Of a DNA stretch of 43,559 nucleotides, positions 7,004 through 14,319 are shown in pieces. Each line of letters begins with the position of its first letter. The first letter of the stretch is position 1. Under the pieces are notes generated by a model. It worked only from the letters and a program-made list of their open reading frames with translations. It did no database searches and was not told the origin of the DNA. This DNA is from Acidobacteriota bacterium (GTDB lineage Bacteria; Acidobacteriota; Holophagae; Holophagales; Holophagaceae). The translations under genes were made by a program, and so were the position numbers. The stretch is taken from positions 1-43,559 of the forward strand of contig JAKAMQ010000004.1 in the NCBI GenBank assembly GCA_021812805.1, in the 5' to 3' direction.

Positions 7004-7318
7004 TCAGGAAGGCTCCAGGGGAGGCCTCCTGTCCGTCGCCCGTACGGTTCGGAGGAGCTCCCGCAGCAGGGCCTTGGTCGCCTCCTTGTCGGGGAAGCGG
7101 ATGGCTTCCTGCGGGCAGTACCCTGCGCACTTGTCGCAGAGCACGACGCACTGGCCGGGATTGACCACGTCCATCTGGTTCGTCTGCTCGTTGAGCGCAT
7201 AGACGCCATTGGGGCAGACATCCAGGCAGTCCCCACAGCCGATGCAGCGCTCGGGGTCGATGCTGGGCGCCCAGGGGATCGCTTCCCGGGGGAGGCCCAT
7301 GAAAGTGCTTCCTGCCAT
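7004..7318 (-). CDS. Ferredoxin-like protein with two [4Fe-4S] clusters
   Basis: A 104-residue iron-sulfur protein. The first cluster motif is CIGCGDCLDVCP (about 26-37); the second, CVVLCDKCAGYCP, has a Cys-x3-Cys-x2-Cys-x3-Cys-Pro spacing. A Pro/Arg-rich tail follows. It should shuttle electrons in the cytoplasm. The start ATG 7318 has GGGAGG six bases upstream; longer in-frame versions overlap the preceding gene and are not protein-like. It lies 14 bases after the HdrA-like Cys-rich gene and before the permease. The partner enzyme is not visible; the neighbouring Cys-rich protein is the best guess. Confidence 0.88.
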   Translation of the reverse strand: MAGSTFMGLPREAIPWAPSIDPERCIGCGDCLDVCPNGVYALNEQTNQMDVVNPGQCVVLCDKCAGYCPQEAIRFPDKEATKALLRELLRTVRATDRRPPLEPS

Positions 7319-7332
7319 GGCAACCTCCCCGC

Positions 7333-7725
7333 CTAGGCGTTCGCAGGCGAGGCGAGGAGCGCCTTTTCGATCTTCTGGAAGACGGAGTCGGTGGTTTCCT
7401 GGGCCATGCTGATGGGGATCCAGTGGGCGGCATCCATGGGCACGCCGGCCTTCTGGAAGCCTTCCCGCAGGAGCTTCTCCTGGCGCTTCTCGGCACAGGC
7501 GGGGGTCAGGAACTGGATCTGGCGATCCACGAGGTGTCCCATGAGGCGTTCTCCGTCCTCCTCGCACAAGCGGGGATGCAAGGCCATGAATTCGACCTTG
7601 TCCCCGAACTCCAGGCGGACTCGTTCCGCGAGCCCCCAGAAATCAATCTGGGCCATGCTCGGGCAGGCGCCGGAACAGGTGCAGAAGAGGATGGCCTTGC
7701 GGGTCGAAGCTGGCTCGTGAGTCAT
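7333..7725 (-). CDS. Cys-rich protein, HdrA N-terminal-domain-like
   Basis: The 130-residue protein starts FCTCSGACPSM (Cys15, Cys17, Cys21), with further cysteines at 54 (LHPRLCEEDG) and 77 (LTPACAEK). The arrangement resembles the N-terminal segment of heterodisulfide reductase subunit A, which can bind an Fe-S cluster; the flavin domain is absent. I infer an electron-transfer role with the ferredoxin encoded 14 bases downstream. GGAGG six bases before ATG 7725 fixes the start. The gene lies 14 bases after the universal stress protein gene in the arsRDA operon. The resemblance is by motif layout only, so the function remains open. Confidence 0.7.
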   Translation of the reverse strand: MTHEPASTRKAILFCTCSGACPSMAQIDFWGLAERVRLEFGDKVEFMALHPRLCEEDGERLMGHLVDRQIQFLTPACAEKRQEKLLREGFQKAGVPMDAAHWIPISMAQETTDSVFQKIEKALLASPANA

Positions 7726-7739
7726 GATGACCCTCCTTT

Positions 7740-8609
7740 CTACCGCACGGGCGGTATGAGCAGTGTCGGGATGGGCGCGTGCCGGGAGATGTGGTGGGCG
7801 AGGCTTCCCAGCAGGATGTCCCCGAAGTAGCCACGCCCCTGGGAGCCCATGAGGATGAGGGAGTAGCCTTCCAGCCCGGCTTCCTTCAGGATCTCCCGCT
7901 TGGGGAACCCGTAGGGGAGCCGGATCCGGATATCCGATGCGCCGAGCTGTCCGAGGCGGGAAGCCAACCGCTCCAGCCGTCCCGTGTCGATGCGGTTGAA
8001 TTCCTCCAGGCGCTCGTGGAGGTGACCCCCGATCCGGCTCTCGTCCTGGACATGGATCAGCGTGATCCGGCGGCAGCCCTGCCGCACCAGCTCCTCCAGG
8101 CTGGAGAAGGCATGGTCCGCCGTATCTGAGAAGTCGGTGGTGAAGAGGACGTGCTGGAGGAAATCCTGGCACACCATCTCGCAGGCCGGCTCGGGGCCCT
8201 CCAGATGCCTCAGCCGGGCGATGAAGACCGGGATCTCGGAGCGGTGAAGGACTTCCTGGGCCACCCCTCCGAGCAGCCTGTCCGGAGCGAGGGAGGCCCC
8301 CTGGGACCCCACGACGATCATCGAGGCATCCCTTTCATGGGCCACCCGGAGGATCTCCTGGGTGGGCGCGCCGGAGGCCAGGATGGATTCCGCCTTGAAC
8401 CCCTGCGCCTCCAAGGCCTCGACCTGCCGGCGGAGGTGGGGTTCAGCCTCTTGGGCCAGCAACTTGGCCATCTCCTCGAGGTGGCGAACACCCAGCGCGT
8501 GGAGCAGGGTGATCCGGGTGACAGAGAGGGCCCGCAGCCCATGGAGGCAGGCGATCATGCGATCCGAGGCGGGAGAGAGATCCGTGGCGAGAAGGGCATG
8601 GCGGAACAT
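7740..8609 (-). CDS. Tandem universal stress protein (two UspA domains)
   Basis: A 289-residue cytoplasmic protein made of two Usp folds, about 1-140 and 150-289. Each starts with a beta strand and Asp (LLATDLS; LFTTDFS) and ends with the nucleotide-loop signature (VVGSQGASLAPDRLLGGVAQ; LMGSQGRGYFGDILLGSLAH) close to the ATP-binding G-x2-G-x9-G pattern. It is 12 bases downstream of arsA and 14 bases upstream of the HdrA-like gene, clearly co-transcribed. Usp proteins are common in stress operons; a specific role in metalloid resistance is not established. Confidence 0.92.
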   Translation of the reverse strand: MFRHALLATDLSPASDRMIACLHGLRALSVTRITLLHALGVRHLEEMAKLLAQEAEPHLRRQVEALEAQGFKAESILASGAPTQEILRVAHERDASMIVVGSQGASLAPDRLLGGVAQEVLHRSEIPVFIARLRHLEGPEPACEMVCQDFLQHVLFTTDFSDTADHAFSSLEELVRQGCRRITLIHVQDESRIGGHLHERLEEFNRIDTGRLERLASRLGQLGASDIRIRLPYGFPKREILKEAGLEGYSLILMGSQGRGYFGDILLGSLAHHISRHAPIPTLLIPPVR

Positions 8610-8621
8610 GGCGGGACTCCT

Positions 8622-10373
8622 TCAGGGGAGGGCTTCCGAAGTGGGGCTGGGCACGGGCAGGGTGAGGGAAAGGGGATGCAATGTGACCCGGGCCGCGTGA
8701 TCCGCCAGCTCGTTCAGGTAGCGGCCCTCGAGGCGGCGGCGCGCCTGGAGCAGGGGGTCGGTGACGGGGACTGGGGACAGGCACTGGTTCGCCACCCAGG
8801 CGAAGGGATGGATGCCGGCCCGGGCCAGATCCTGTTCCAGCGCCATCGCCTCGTGGAGAGGCGTGGCCTCCGGCAGGGTCACCAGGAGCATGCGCGTGAA
8901 GGAAGACTCCCTCAGGCGGGGCAGCAGGTTGCGCACGGCTTCGGGTAGGTCGCTCGCGGTGCGCAGCACCTCCCGGTGGTAGGCCTCGGCCGCATCCAGC
9001 AGCAGGAGCGTGTGGCCCGTAGGGGCCGTATCGATCACCACGATCCGGTCCTTTCCCTGGGCCACGGTCTCGGCGAAAGCCCGGAATACGGCGATCTCCT
9101 CGGTGCAGGGGGAGCGGAGGTCCTCCTCCAGCAGGGCCCGGCCCTCCGCATCGAGATCCCGCCCCGCGGTGGCCATCACCTGGGCGCGGTAGTCATCAAG
9201 GACCTGCCGGGGATCGATGCGCGTGACGTGGAGCCCCGCGTGCCCCTCCCCCACCGCCGCGGCCACATGGGCGGCGGGATCGGTAGTGGTGAGGGTGACC
9301 GGCAGGCCCCGGAGGGATAGTTCCATGGCGATCCGCGCCGCCAGGGTGGTCTTGCCGACGCCCCCCTTGCCCAGGGTCATCATCACGCCCGTGCCCCCGG
9401 CGGCCAGTTGGTCCACGAGGTCGTTCCAAGGCTCGAAACGGGACAGGTCCACCTCAATGTCTGCCGGGGAAGCGAGGCGCGTCATGCCATCCGCGCCCCC
9501 CAGGCTGCGGAGGGCCGGGAGGCCCAGCATCCCGTAGGGCAGCAGGGACAGTTCCGTTCGAGGAAGCGACCGGAGCCCTTGGGGCAGGTCGTCTGAGGCC
9601 TCGCGGCCCCGGGCCTCCAGGGCCCGGGCGAGGGGATCGGCCGGATCGCCCGCCCGGAAGAGGCCGTTGAGGATCAGATGGACGTTCTGGATGCCCAACT
9701 GCGCCAGTTCGGCGCGGGTGCGTTCGGCTTCCTGGAGGGAGGGCTGGTCGGGCCTGGCCACCAAGACGAGGGTGGTCCGCTGGCCGTCGCGCAGAACCGC
9801 CTGGGAGGCGGCATAGAGGGCCTTCTGCTCGCCGAGCCCGGACAGGGGACCCAGGCAGGAGTTCCCCCCGACGTTGGATTCGATGAAGCTGGACCAAGCC
9901 GACGGCAGCTCCAGGAGGCGGAGGGTGTGTCCCGTGGGCGCGGTATCAAAAAGCACGTGGTCGAAGGAGGCCGTGTGGGCCGGATCCCCCAGCAGGTTCG
10001 AGAACGCATCGAAGGCGGCGATTTCCGTGGTGCAGGCCCCGGAGAGTTGTTCTTCCATGCTGGCTACCACGGCTTCGGGCAGCATCCCGCGGACGGGGGC
10101 GATCATCCGCTCGCGATAGGCACCGGCCGCGGCCTCTGGATCGATGTTCAGGGCCGAAAGACCCGGAACCCCGGGCACCGGCAGGGGAGATCCGGACAAG
10201 TTGACCCCCAGGACTTCGTCCAGGTTGGAGGCGGGATCGGTGCTGACCAGCAGCACCCGCTGTCCCGCATCCGCGAGGGCGATGGCCGTGGCGCAGGCCG
10301 TGGAGGTCTTGCCGACGCCCCCCTTGCCCGTGAAGAACAGGATGGGGGTGGGATGGGGCACGAGACGTGACAT
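8622..10373 (-). CDS. arsA: ArsA arsenical pump-driving ATPase
   Basis: The 583-residue protein has the full two-half ArsA layout. P-loops are GKGGVGKTS at about 16-24 and GKGGVGKTT at about 334-342, and each half carries DTAPTGHTL. The three metalloid-binding cysteines are in place: Cys114 (SGACTTEIAAF), Cys173 (NSCLGPLSGL) and Cys422 (RSPCTEEIAVF), matching Cys113/172/422 of the E. coli plasmid enzyme. ArsA energises an arsenite carrier with ATP and receives As(III) from ArsD, whose gene ends 13 bases upstream. The start ATG 10373 has GGGGGA upstream and places the first P-loop normally. The likely carrier is Acr3 (12881-13981) or, less conventionally, the ArsP-type permease further down the operon. 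Confidence 0.97.
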   Translation of the reverse strand: MSRLVPHPTPILFFTGKGGVGKTSTACATAIALADAGQRVLLVSTDPASNLDEVLGVNLSGSPLPVPGVPGLSALNIDPEAAAGAYRERMIAPVRGMLPEAVVASMEEQLSGACTTEIAAFDAFSNLLGDPAHTASFDHVLFDTAPTGHTLRLLELPSAWSSFIESNVGGNSCLGPLSGLGEQKALYAASQAVLRDGQRTTLVLVARPDQPSLQEAERTRAELAQLGIQNVHLILNGLFRAGDPADPLARALEARGREASDDLPQGLRSLPRTELSLLPYGMLGLPALRSLGGADGMTRLASPADIEVDLSRFEPWNDLVDQLAAGGTGVMMTLGKGGVGKTTLAARIAMELSLRGLPVTLTTTDPAAHVAAAVGEGHAGLHVTRIDPRQVLDDYRAQVMATAGRDLDAEGRALLEEDLRSPCTEEIAVFRAFAETVAQGKDRIVVIDTAPTGHTLLLLDAAEAYHREVLRTASDLPEAVRNLLPRLRESSFTRMLLVTLPEATPLHEAMALEQDLARAGIHPFAWVANQCLSPVPVTDPLLQARRRLEGRYLNELADHAARVTLHPLSLTLPVPSPTSEALP

Positions 10374-10386
10374 GATGCTTCCCCCT

Positions 10387-11013
10387 TCAGCAGCAGGAGC
10401 TGCCGCCGCCGCAGCAGCCGTTGGATTCCGTGGTGGGCAGCAGTTGGAGGCCAGCATCCTCGATGCGGTCCTGGGCCGGGGGGGCGGGCTGGGTTAGGTA
10501 GCGCTCCGCCAGAGCCAGCACGGCCTTGGCCGGGGCCTCCTTCACGCCCTGGGCGGTGCGTACCGCGCGGAGCATGTCCTCCGCCGAAACCCCCAGTTTC
10601 CGGGCCTTGTCGTAGTGGAACTTGAAGCAGGGTTCGCAGTTGGAGGCGATGGCCGCGCCGATGGCCACCAGCTCCTGCACCGCCTCCGTGTAGAGGGAGG
10701 GCGAGGGCGTCCCGAGCCCCGCCCAGGCGGCCAGAACGGACCGGGCCGGGTAGGCACCCTGGCTGACGATGTGCCCGTCCACCTTGATGAGCGGCAACGC
10801 CTTGTCACCGGCGGCCTCGAGGGCGGCCCGCACACTCGGGTCCTGGGCGAAGGCCTGGGCCTGCTGGGCGAGGTTGAACCGCTCCACGGCCACCCCCTGG
10901 GTCTTCAGCCACTCGAGATCTGCGGCGAACCGGGTGAGCTTGGGGTCCACAGTGGGACCGCACACGCCCGTGGCGCAGCACATGGGGGGATCGAACACCT
11001 GGAGTCGGGCCAT
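10387..11013 (-). CDS. arsD: ArsD arsenic metallochaperone with inserted CMD/AhpD-like domain
   Basis: At 208 residues this is nearly twice the usual ArsD length (about 120). Residues 1-105 are an ordinary ArsD with Cys12, Cys13 and Cys18 exactly where the E. coli protein has them. Residues about 106-175 form a carboxymuconolactone-decarboxylase/AhpD-like helical domain with CEPCFKFH (Cys126, Cys129, His133), a possible redox or peroxidase centre. The tail then ends in Cys200-Cys201 and Cys207-Cys208, the same CC-x5-CC spacing that closes classical ArsD. The extra domain therefore sits between the core and the terminal cysteine pairs. ArsD hands As(III) to ArsA, encoded 13 bases downstream. 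AGGAGG four bases before the ATG fixes the start. The thiol domain might reduce or sense the metalloid. Confidence 0.93.
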   Translation of the reverse strand: MARLQVFDPPMCCATGVCGPTVDPKLTRFAADLEWLKTQGVAVERFNLAQQAQAFAQDPSVRAALEAAGDKALPLIKVDGHIVSQGAYPARSVLAAWAGLGTPSPSLYTEAVQELVAIGAAIASNCEPCFKFHYDKARKLGVSAEDMLRAVRTAQGVKEAPAKAVLALAERYLTQPAPPAQDRIEDAGLQLLPTTESNGCCGGGSSCC

Positions 11014-11083: not shown

Positions 11084-11488
11084 TCAGGCGCGCTCGCAGG
11101 CGGCCGAGGCCAGGGGATCTTTGGATTCCTGCGCGATGACGCAGGCTCGGGGCACCTGGTTCCGGGCCTCGAGCGCGGTGCGGTGATCGGAGGCCACGGC
11201 GGGATCTTCGGAGAGCTCGGGCCAGAGGACCCCCAGCAGGGCCATGGAGAAGACATCGGGAACCAGGGCGTAGTGGACCCAGCGCCCAGCCTTGCGTTCC
11301 GCGACGAAACCGGCCTTCCGCAGGTCCGACAGATGCTGGGAGACCGTTGAAGGAGCCAGGCCCACCACATCGGTGATCTCGCAGACGCAGAGTTCCCCCT
11401 CCCGGAGCATGGCGAGGATCCGCAACCGGATGGGGTTGGCCAGGGCCTTGAGTTGATCAACGAGCATGGGAAGCGGTGGTTGGTTCAT
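11084..11488 (-). CDS. arsR: ArsR repressor of the arsD-arsA operon
   Basis: A 134-residue winged-helix repressor. ELCVCEITDVVG (Cys34, Cys36) is the classic As(III)-responsive motif and STVSQHLSDLRKAGFV is the recognition helix. The C-terminal 40 residues add Cys at ACVIAQ and ASAACERA. It begins the arsR-arsD-arsA transcript; arsD starts 70 bases downstream. The start ATG lies inside a 22-bp operator-like palindrome and only about 15 bases after the predicted transcription start, so binding would block both promoter clearance and leader synthesis, giving autorepression. A downstream Met (11467) is possible but lacks a ribosome site and would cut into the fold. Confidence 0.93.
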   Translation of the reverse strand: MNQPPLPMLVDQLKALANPIRLRILAMLREGELCVCEITDVVGLAPSTVSQHLSDLRKAGFVAERKAGRWVHYALVPDVFSMALLGVLWPELSEDPAVASDHRTALEARNQVPRACVIAQESKDPLASAACERA

Positions 11489-11924: not shown

Positions 11925-12443
11925 TCAACGCCTGGTCGCGGCTTCGTCGTCCTGCCCGATCTGGGCCAACTTCTGGTGGAGGCTGATCCGGTCGATGGAG
12001 GCCAGGGGCAGGGCCAGGAACAGGGTGATCCGGCTCTGGAGCTGGAGGAAGGCGAGGCTGAAGGCGTGGGCCACCTCCTCCGCGGTTCCGGCGACGGCGG
12101 CCGGGTCAGGGATACCCCAATGGGCTGTGATCGGATCCCCGGGCCATCCGATGGCGCAGGCCTCCTGGTGGGACTTGTCGCAAAGGGTGAACACAAAATC
12201 CATCCGGGGCGCTCCATCGCCGGTGTAGACCTCCCAGCCCTTGCTGTGCGCCGCCTCCCAAGGCAGGCCAAGGACCTTCAACTGGGCCAGGGCGAGAGGA
12301 TGGACCTCCCCCGTGGGATGGCTACCGGCGCTGAAGGCCTTGAACCGGCCCCGACCGAGATGGTTCAGGATCGCCTCCGCCAGGATGCTGCGGGCTGAAT
12401 TGCCTTCGCAGAGGAAGAGGACGTGGTAGATCGGGGTGCTCAT
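11925..12443 (-). CDS. ArsC-family (low-molecular-weight phosphatase-like) protein
   Basis: A 172-residue protein with the phosphatase/arsenate reductase loop CEGNSAR (Cys12 to Arg18) directly after the first strand, and a later FTLCDKSHQEAC segment where ArsC enzymes keep redox cysteines. The C-terminal 40 residues form a predicted helix beyond the usual 130-140-residue fold. It probably reduces arsenate to arsenite, or dephosphorylates an arsenate-related ester. It follows the shorter arsC by 24 bases. Two divergent paralogues in one operon suggest different reductants or substrates. The start has AGGAGG five bases before ATG 12443. Confidence 0.88.
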   Translation of the reverse strand: MSTPIYHVLFLCEGNSARSILAEAILNHLGRGRFKAFSAGSHPTGEVHPLALAQLKVLGLPWEAAHSKGWEVYTGDGAPRMDFVFTLCDKSHQEACAIGWPGDPITAHWGIPDPAAVAGTAEEVAHAFSLAFLQLQSRITLFLALPLASIDRISLHQKLAQIGQDDEAATRR

Positions 12444-12467: not shown

Positions 12468-12884
12468 CTAGAACCGTTCAGCCTTCAATTGCCCCAGGCG
12501 ACGCCGGATCTCGTCCCGCCCGGCGCGGAATCGGGCCCGCAGATCCTCCGGGGTGAGGGTGGGATCGTCGCTGGCAGGATCGGGAATGGGCCAGTGCAGG
12601 CGTTCGGCCTTGCCCAGGAAGAGTGGGCAGACTTCCTCGGCGCAGAGGGTGATGACCAGGTCCACGGAAGCGGGATCGATCGTCTCCACGGATTTCGAGG
12701 TGTGGCCGGTGATGTCGATCCCGGCCTCGGCCAGGATCTCGATGGCGTACGGGTTCACGCGGCTGGGGCGGCTGCCCGCGCTCTGGATGCGCAGGCCCGG
12801 GAACATCTGCCGGGCCAGGCCCTCGGCCATCTGGGAGCGGGCGCTGTTGGCCACGCAGAGAAAGAGGATGGAACGGGGCGTCAC
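12468..12884 (-). CDS. arsC: Thioredoxin-coupled arsenate reductase
   Basis: The 138-residue enzyme has the catalytic loop CVANSAR (Cys10-Arg16) and the redox pair Cys81 and Cys86 in [10 protein letters not shown], the typical disulfide-cascade residues of thioredoxin-dependent ArsC, then the HWPIPDPA segment with the general-acid Asp. It converts As(V) to As(III) for export. Its ATG overlaps the stop of acr3 (ATGA at 12881-12884), so reductase and exporter are translated together. Small thioredoxin-like proteins in the same region are possible reductants. Confidence 0.95.
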
Positions 12885-13981
12885 GGCTTCACCTCGGGTT
12901 CAGTGGTGGGGCAGCAGATGATGCCGGCGACGGATTCCGCACTTTCGGGGTACCAGCGCCCCTTGAGCCAGAGGGCCACGTTCACCAAACCGATGAGGAC
13001 CGGCACCTCCACCAGCGGCCCGATGACCGCCGCGAAGGCCGCCCCGTGGGCGATGCCGAAGGTGGCCACGGCTACGGCGATGGCCAGCTCGAAGTTGTTG
13101 GAGGCGGACGTGAAGCTCAGCGTGGCGCTCTGCGGGTAGGTGGCGCCCACCTTCTTCGACATCCAGAAGCTCACGAGGAACATCACCACGAAGTAGATGA
13201 GCAGCGGGATCGCGATGCGGAGGACATCCAAGGGCAGCTTCACGATGGCATCGCCCTTCAGGCTGAACATCACGACGATGGTGAAGAGCAGGGCGATGAG
13301 GGTGATGGGGCTGATCTTCGGCACGAACACCCGGTGGTACCAGTCCAGCCCCTTGATCCGCCCCAGGACGAAACGGGTCAGGAAGCCTGCGAGGAAGGGA
13401 ATCCCCAGGTAGATGAAGACGCTCTCGGCGATCTGCCCGATGGTGATGCTGACCACCGCGCCGTGGAGGCCGAGCTTCGCTGGCAGCACCGTGACGAAGA
13501 ACCAGGCGTACACGCTGAAGAAGAGGACCTGGAAGATGGAGTTGAAGGCCACCAGTCCCGCGCAGTATTCCGTATCGCCCTTGGCCAGGTCGTTCCACAC
13601 GATGACCATGGCGATGCAGCGGGCCAGGCCGATGAGGATGAGGCCGATCATGTACTCCGGATGGTTCCGCAGGAACAGCACGGCCAGCCCGAACATGAGC
13701 AGGGGCCCGACGATCCAGTTCTGCACCAGCGACAGCCCCAGCACCTTCTTGTTCCGGAAGACGAGGTGCAGCTCCTCGTATTTCACCTTGGCCAGGGGCG
13801 GGTACATCATCAGGATCAGGCCCACCGCCAGGGGCACGCTGGTGGTGCCCATGTTCCAGGCGTTGATGGCCCGGTTGAAGCCGGGCACCGCATAGCCGAG
13901 CAGCACGCCGAAGCCCATGGCCAGGAAGATCCAGAGCGTGAGGTAGCGGTCGAGGAAGGAGAGGCGCTTCGAAGCGGGCAT
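12881..13981 (-). CDS. acr3: Acr3-type arsenite efflux carrier
   Basis: A 366-residue inner-membrane protein with about ten helices. The functional cysteine is in [18 protein letters not shown] (Cys122), matching the essential Cys of characterised Acr3 proteins, and [11 protein letters not shown] holds the conserved Glu of the ninth helix. The short C-terminal tail adds a CC pair. It exports As(III), and may work alone on proton motive force or with the ArsA ATPase encoded downstream. The start ATG 13981 gives the normal N-terminus; the gene lies 14 bases after an arsR and is coupled to arsC by a 4-base overlap. Confidence 0.96.
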
Positions 13982-13995
13982 GGGGACTCCGTGGG

Positions 13996-14319
13996 TTACA
14001 GGCAGTGGGGATCCCGGCATCCGCTGCCGCAGCAGTCCTGCCAGAGGTACTCGGTGAGGGCCTTGAGCTGATCGAAGCGGGCGGCGTAGCGGATGGTGGT
14101 TCCCTCCCGCGAGGCCTTGAGCAGGCCCGCCTCCGAAAGCTCTGCCAGGTGATGGCTGAGAGTAGATGCGGGCATGCGGAGAAGGCTCTGGATCTGCCCC
14201 GCTGGGGTCCCTTCAACTGGACCCTGTACCACGGTCCGGATGATCGACAGGCGACCCGAATGGGCCAGGGCCTTCAATTGCCGGGTGATCCGTTCGAGGG
14301 GGGGGGTCAGGTCGATCAT
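13996..14319 (-). CDS. arsR: ArsR repressor with C-terminal cysteine cluster
   Basis: A 107-residue winged-helix repressor with no CxC in the DNA-binding region. Instead the last twelve residues carry Cys96, Cys97, Cys101 and Cys106 (DCCGSGC), close to the C-terminal As(III) site described for Acidithiobacillus ferrooxidans ArsR (Cys95, Cys96, Cys102). This is a different sensor architecture from the other two ArsR proteins here. It begins the arsR-acr3-arsC transcript; acr3 starts 14 bases later. The start is not preceded by an evident Shine-Dalgarno; the upstream bases are AT-rich (TTAATTATTC), the likely promoter/operator. Confidence 0.93.

Follow-up and report, generated by a model that had tools for sequence, protein, structure and literature searches.

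An open reading frame in the ars operon of an Acidobacteriota bacterium (assembly GCA_021812805.1, contig JAKAMQ010000004.1) encodes an ArsD of unusual length, raising the question of what its additional residues are and what they might do in an arsenic chaperone. ArsD is a textbook metallochaperone that collects As(III) on Cys12, Cys13 and Cys18 and passes it to ArsA. Characterized ArsD proteins are about 120 amino acids long and lack a carboxymuconolactone decarboxylase (CMD) domain, unlike the product of the gene examined here, which lies at 10387..11013 on the minus strand of the window (the whole 43,559-nucleotide stretch analyzed, part of a draft genome of 242 contigs that is 88% complete and has its nearest homologues in Holophagaceae and Geothrix). 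The initial annotation, made from the sequence alone, read this product as an ArsD with a CMD/AhpD-like domain. Its 208 amino acid translation (plus a stop codon) bears out the features named there: the conserved ArsD-type As(III)-site cysteines Cys12, Cys13 and Cys18 (10960..10980, minus strand), the conserved motif CEPCFKFH at residues 126–133 (10615..10638, minus strand), which holds Cys126, Cys129 and His133 and has Glu114 upstream, and the C-terminal CC-x5-CC tail (10390..10416, minus strand).

Profile searches recognized both parts of the protein. The Pfam model PF06953 covers residues 1–106 (E 3.5e-42, 144 bits against a cut-off of 27) and the curated ArsD model NF033727 scores 121.7 bits against a cut-off of 90 (E 1.4e-35), which together mark an ArsD domain of thioredoxin-like fold at residues 1–101 (10711..11013, minus strand). 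The CMD/AhpD-like domain (10507..10689, minus strand) is covered at residues 109–169 by PF02627 (E 1.7e-9, 38 bits against a cut-off of 23) and also exceeds the cut-off of TIGR00778 (E 5.9e-7, 28.9 bits against 27.8). An AlphaFold2 model built on a 29-sequence alignment (mean pLDDT 87, pTM 0.64) predicts both domains confidently and the last 20 residues as disordered, with pLDDT below 50 at residues 189–199 and 201–208; at this pTM the relative placement of the two cysteine centres is unreliable. Solved ArsD structures match the first domain of the model (3ktb, Z 17.1; 3mwh, Z 16.0) and small CMD structures match the second over residues 107–176 (RclX 7y4r, Z 10.8; 3bey, Z 9.8). Residues 1–101 share the fold, the Cys12/13/18 triad and the adjoining arsA with R773 ArsD (3mwh/3kgk; NF033727). 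The second domain has the CMD fold in common with RclX (7y4r), MTH O27018 (3bey) and TTHA0727 (2cwq), along with the Glu, CxxC and His where these are present, but those proteins are not fused to a metal chaperone and their functions are mostly unknown or concern oxidant stress. The product of 10387..11013 is thus a full ArsD joined to a genuine CMD/AhpD-like domain, and we refer to it as ArsD::CMD.

The operon around the fusion reads, 5′ to 3′ on the minus strand, arsR, acr3, two arsC-like genes, arsR, arsD::CMD, arsA and universal stress protein. It begins with an arsR-type regulator (13996..14319; NF033788), followed by the acr3 arsenite efflux transporter (12881..13984; TIGR00832, E 1.6e-135) and two arsC-like proteins of LMW-PTP fold, one of the thioredoxin type (12468..12884; TIGR02691, E 3.4e-28) and one divergent (11925..12443; TIGR02691, E 7e-12), both under the cut-off of that model. 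Another arsR-type regulator (11084..11488; NF033788) lies directly upstream of the fusion, and arsA, the arsenical pump-driving ATPase (8622..10373; TIGR04291, E 8e-222), starts 13 bp past the fusion's stop codon. Downstream of arsA is a universal stress protein pair (7740..8609; PF00582), and such genes are also present in several related loci. At the operon end, a 130-amino acid protein with the motif CTCSGACPSM (7336-7725, minus strand), which has no match in Pfam or NCBIfam, adjoins a ferredoxin-like protein (7007-7567, minus strand); the same pair precedes arsA in locus L066 (3436-4150).

The fusion extends well beyond this assembly, as a 95%-identical Holophagaceae homologue and Geothrix isolates carry it too. 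Profile classification across all loci gave 38 distinct fused proteins, and the GTDB species genomes scanned contained fusions under the labels Acidobacteriota, Myxococcota, Nitrospirota, Planctomycetota, Pseudomonadota, Atribacterota and Verrucomicrobiota, although the Nitrospirota (L032) and Atribacterota (L041) cases each come from one short metagenome-assembled contig and could be misbinned. An assembly or chimera artefact is ruled out by the presence of the fusion in isolates and in many lineages. Among 396 genomes from the window's phylum there are 25 ArsD loci, 9 of them fused and one more with a separate CMD gene nearby; 195 genomes from the Anaeromyxobacter phylum gave 16, again with 9 fused. 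These counts are not independent events, since several genomes are close kin, and Geothrix or its near relatives account for four of the nine acidobacterial ones. ArsD::CMD is sporadic in the phyla surveyed around the Rhodospirillales, Planctomycetaceae and Verrucomicrobia loci, where the centre genome alone is fused. Most ArsD in the other phyla surveyed lack the CMD domain, so ArsD function does not depend on it. Spread on plasmids was rejected as an explanation: of the 2,121 plasmid records that matched, none reaches 80% coverage of the fusion, and PLSDB gave no CMD match at E 1e-5.

Conservation within the fusions follows the two thiol centres. Cys12, Cys13, Cys18, Glu114, Cys126, Cys129 and His133 are invariant in all 29 aligned fusions; the ArsD triad is kept in 38/38 fused and 85/85 unfused ArsD, and the AhpD-type Glu-x11-Cys-x2-Cys-x3-His in 37 of the 38 distinct fusions, L086 being the sole one without a CxxC motif. 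The AhpD-like thiol centre that the initial annotation described is therefore backed by sequence, conservation and predicted structure alike. The motif scan of these loci turned up no selenocysteine variant, and a seemingly internal TGA in L115 and L127 is the ordinary stop codon. Most sampled Geothrix genomes encode a CMD protein in which NAERAF replaces CxxC (L009-L021, L023:5543-5875, L002); these proteins end in a Cys-rich tail of 7–10 cysteines, and their genes often adjoin arsR, acr3, arsM or arsP. It is possible that they are metallothionein-like arsenic binders.

CMD genes also occur as separate genes in arsenic loci. In L058 (Chloroflexota) and L066 (an unclassified bacterium) a separate CMD gene adjoins separate arsD and arsA genes, and in L101, from another acidobacterial family, it sits between arsD and arsA. 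Stand-alone CMD genes adjoin arsN2-arsM and arsP in L079, arsR-arsC in L080 and arsC/arsP in L126, while L007, L008 and L098 show no ars gene near the CMD gene within the stretch examined. Among the fused loci, arsA is present in 24/29, some of them being truncated contigs. A core ars gene lies within ~1.5 kb in 13/13 fused loci and 5/9 stand-alone CxxC loci (the latter retrieved by similarity to the fusion, partly via its ArsD half) versus 1/30 generic CMD loci. A CMD-only model run on 189 genomes of the Anaeromyxobacter phylum returned ten strong places (eight fusions, one remnant and one near arsC/arsP), after which scores drop from 101 to 44 bits; it is important to note that most of the sequences behind this model come from arsenic loci and that it gauges subfamily specificity as opposed to an unbiased rate. 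The fused CMD is part of a recurrent arsenic-locus module.

Several of these loci have further features. ArsD in L058 (6274-7329) and L066 (6257-7297) carries a long C-terminal extension containing a stretch that resembles a membrane segment plus one more domain, and is followed in both by an integral membrane protein gene. In L101 (1023-1480) a short zinc-ribbon-like protein ending CCGGGGTGCCG is encoded between arsD and the CMD gene. L128 (1147-1851) holds an ArsD::CMD remnant without the ArsD N-terminus, in frame after a sigma-factor-like C-terminus, and in L007 (786-1755) an arsenic-type CMD gene immediately precedes a sigma-factor-like gene on the same strand.

The nearest precedent for ArsD::CMD is the ArsM::AhpD selenoprotein of NCBIfam (NF041537), which appears in the list of a 2026 review (PMC13188914). 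In both, an AhpD domain is joined to an arsenic protein, indicating that arsenic proteins recruit this domain, but the partner in the selenoprotein is a methyltransferase and its centre is CxxU (Sec) as opposed to CxxC. NF041537 matches ArsD::CMD by its AhpD part alone (22.8 bits against a cut-off of 510), the ArsM domain being absent, and the AhpD part of this selenoprotein is also the best NCBIfam match of the CMD proteins in L058, L101, L080 and L079.

How the two domains came together was given in the initial annotation as insertion of the CMD segment before the terminal cysteine pairs of ArsD. Tail CC pairs occur in 35/38 fusions, 50/85 unfused ArsD and 25/27 stand-alone CMD proteins (a figure dominated by related Geothrix sequences), and in L045 (5998-6708) a CC-rich linker of ~40 residues separates the ArsD and CMD domains. 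Since stand-alone CMD proteins have CC tails of their own and L045 has this linker, joining a CMD unit and its own tail to the ArsD C-terminus is simpler and would fit better than insertion, though neither is proven. A single clade of fused ArsD domains was rejected on the ArsD tree (AU p 1e-4), whereas a single clade of fused CMD domains was not rejected on the CMD tree (p 0.21); both trees were built on 70–100 columns and have poor resolution. The five proteobacterial fusions form one clade on the CMD tree (support 97), and one ArsD clade for them was not rejected (p 0.076). The trees would fit either a single CMD lineage that joined several ArsD lineages or a single fusion that was lost repeatedly, and domain shuffling between ArsD and CMD is suggested.

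As for what the fused protein does, we give about an even chance to its being an As(III) chaperone with a built-in accessory dithiol. From what is known of ArsD, the ArsD domain would gather As(III) on Cys12/13/18 and then give it to ArsA, and the Cys126/Cys129 dithiol most likely acts on the same thiol chemistry as this triad. It may do so as a reductase that keeps the easily oxidized triad reduced, or as a relay that passes As(III) to the triad by dithiol exchange; we consider these two variants roughly balanced. Thioredoxin, dihydrolipoamide or another cellular dithiol could supply electrons to Cys126/Cys129, and the CC tail may supply transient As(III) ligands. We favour the accessory dithiol because of both domain matches, the two-fold model, the invariant residues, the arsA and CMD neighbourhoods and the ArsM::AhpD precedent. 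Counting against it are L086 and the CMD proteins of Geothrix ars operons, which lack CxxC, and because of these the CMD fold may have a CxxC-free role. A broader proposal, which we hold only tentatively and think has the odds against it, is that the arsenic-locus CMD would be a distinct, unrecognized mobile dithiol family serving ArsD, ArsM and perhaps ArsC, stand-alone or fused, with ArsD::CMD forming a direct link from arsenate reduction, or from the capture of thiol-bound As(III), to the ArsA pump.

As(III) is bound by vicinal and CxxC dithiols, and the CMD dithiol could serve primarily to bind additional As(III), as a buffer or store without a redox role. The added cysteines in the tails and in the L045 linker would suit such a site, as would the 7–10 cysteines of Geothrix CMD tails where CxxC is lost, but the Glu and His of the AhpD centre are invariant, which a passive site would not require, and we regard this reading as quite improbable. 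The loss of CxxC with retention of the fold, in L086 and in these Cys-tailed Geothrix proteins, is also what would be expected if the CMD were mainly an oligomerization scaffold that clusters ArsD heads and CC tails, raises As(III) avidity and presents these heads and tails to ArsA, the CxxC being secondary. CMD proteins often assemble as trimers or hexameric rings (PMC3141380). However, Glu, Cys, Cys and His are kept in nearly all fusions across phyla, which goes beyond the needs of a scaffold, leaving this explanation unlikely.

The initial annotation proposed that the AhpD-like centre could couple As(III) hand-off to thiol redox or peroxide chemistry. That this thiol module is linked to arsenic handling is supported by the gene neighbourhoods and the ArsM::AhpD family, but peroxide chemistry is weakly supported at most. 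A peroxidase or peroxide-sensing centre that protects or regulates ArsD would have the AhpD-type spacing of Glu, Cys, Cys and His on its side. In M. tuberculosis AhpD the relay consists of Glu118, Cys130, His132, Cys133 and His137 (PMC3141380), and Glu118, Cys130, Cys133 and His137 correspond to residues 114, 126, 129 and 133 of ArsD::CMD. The equivalent of His132, on the other hand, is Pro128, so that four of the five relay residues are present; across the 29 aligned fusions this position holds Pro in the majority and never His, which disfavours a simple transfer of the AhpD peroxidase mechanism. ArsD::CMD also contains one CMD unit, scores 13 bits on the AhpD subfamily model TIGR00777 (cut-off 191.95), and searches not aimed at ahpC noted no ahpC-like gene in its operon. 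We consider a peroxidase role a poor prospect. Hardly credible to us is a neutral or accidental fusion, in which the order arsD-CMD-arsA was read through as one gene and the CMD is an independent enzyme. The adjacent separate genes in L101, L058 and L066 and the scattering of fused ArsD domains over more than one clade agree with this, but the fusion is kept across genomes of seven phyla with its active-site residues intact in nearly all.

We found no paper describing an ArsD-CMD fusion among open-licence papers, and the sole match there for ArsD together with carboxymuconolactone decarboxylase was a Dickeya genome paper; a mention outside these papers, such as in a list of domain architectures, is possible. 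Anaeromyxobacter sp. PSR-1 carries two ArsD::CMD fusions, and its genome announcement names the genes arsD only (PMC4432346). ArsD::CMD appears to be concealed in annotation as plain ArsD, and its recurrence over several phyla suggests a functional component of arsenic resistance that has gone unnoticed. Cultured hosts such as Geothrix terrae, paludis and fuzhouensis and Anaeromyxobacter sp. PSR-1 make experiments practical, and stand-alone CMD genes in arsenic operons gain a testable role. If a widespread form of ArsD does have a second conserved thiol centre, As(III) delivery to the pump can be equipped with a reductant or relay of its own.
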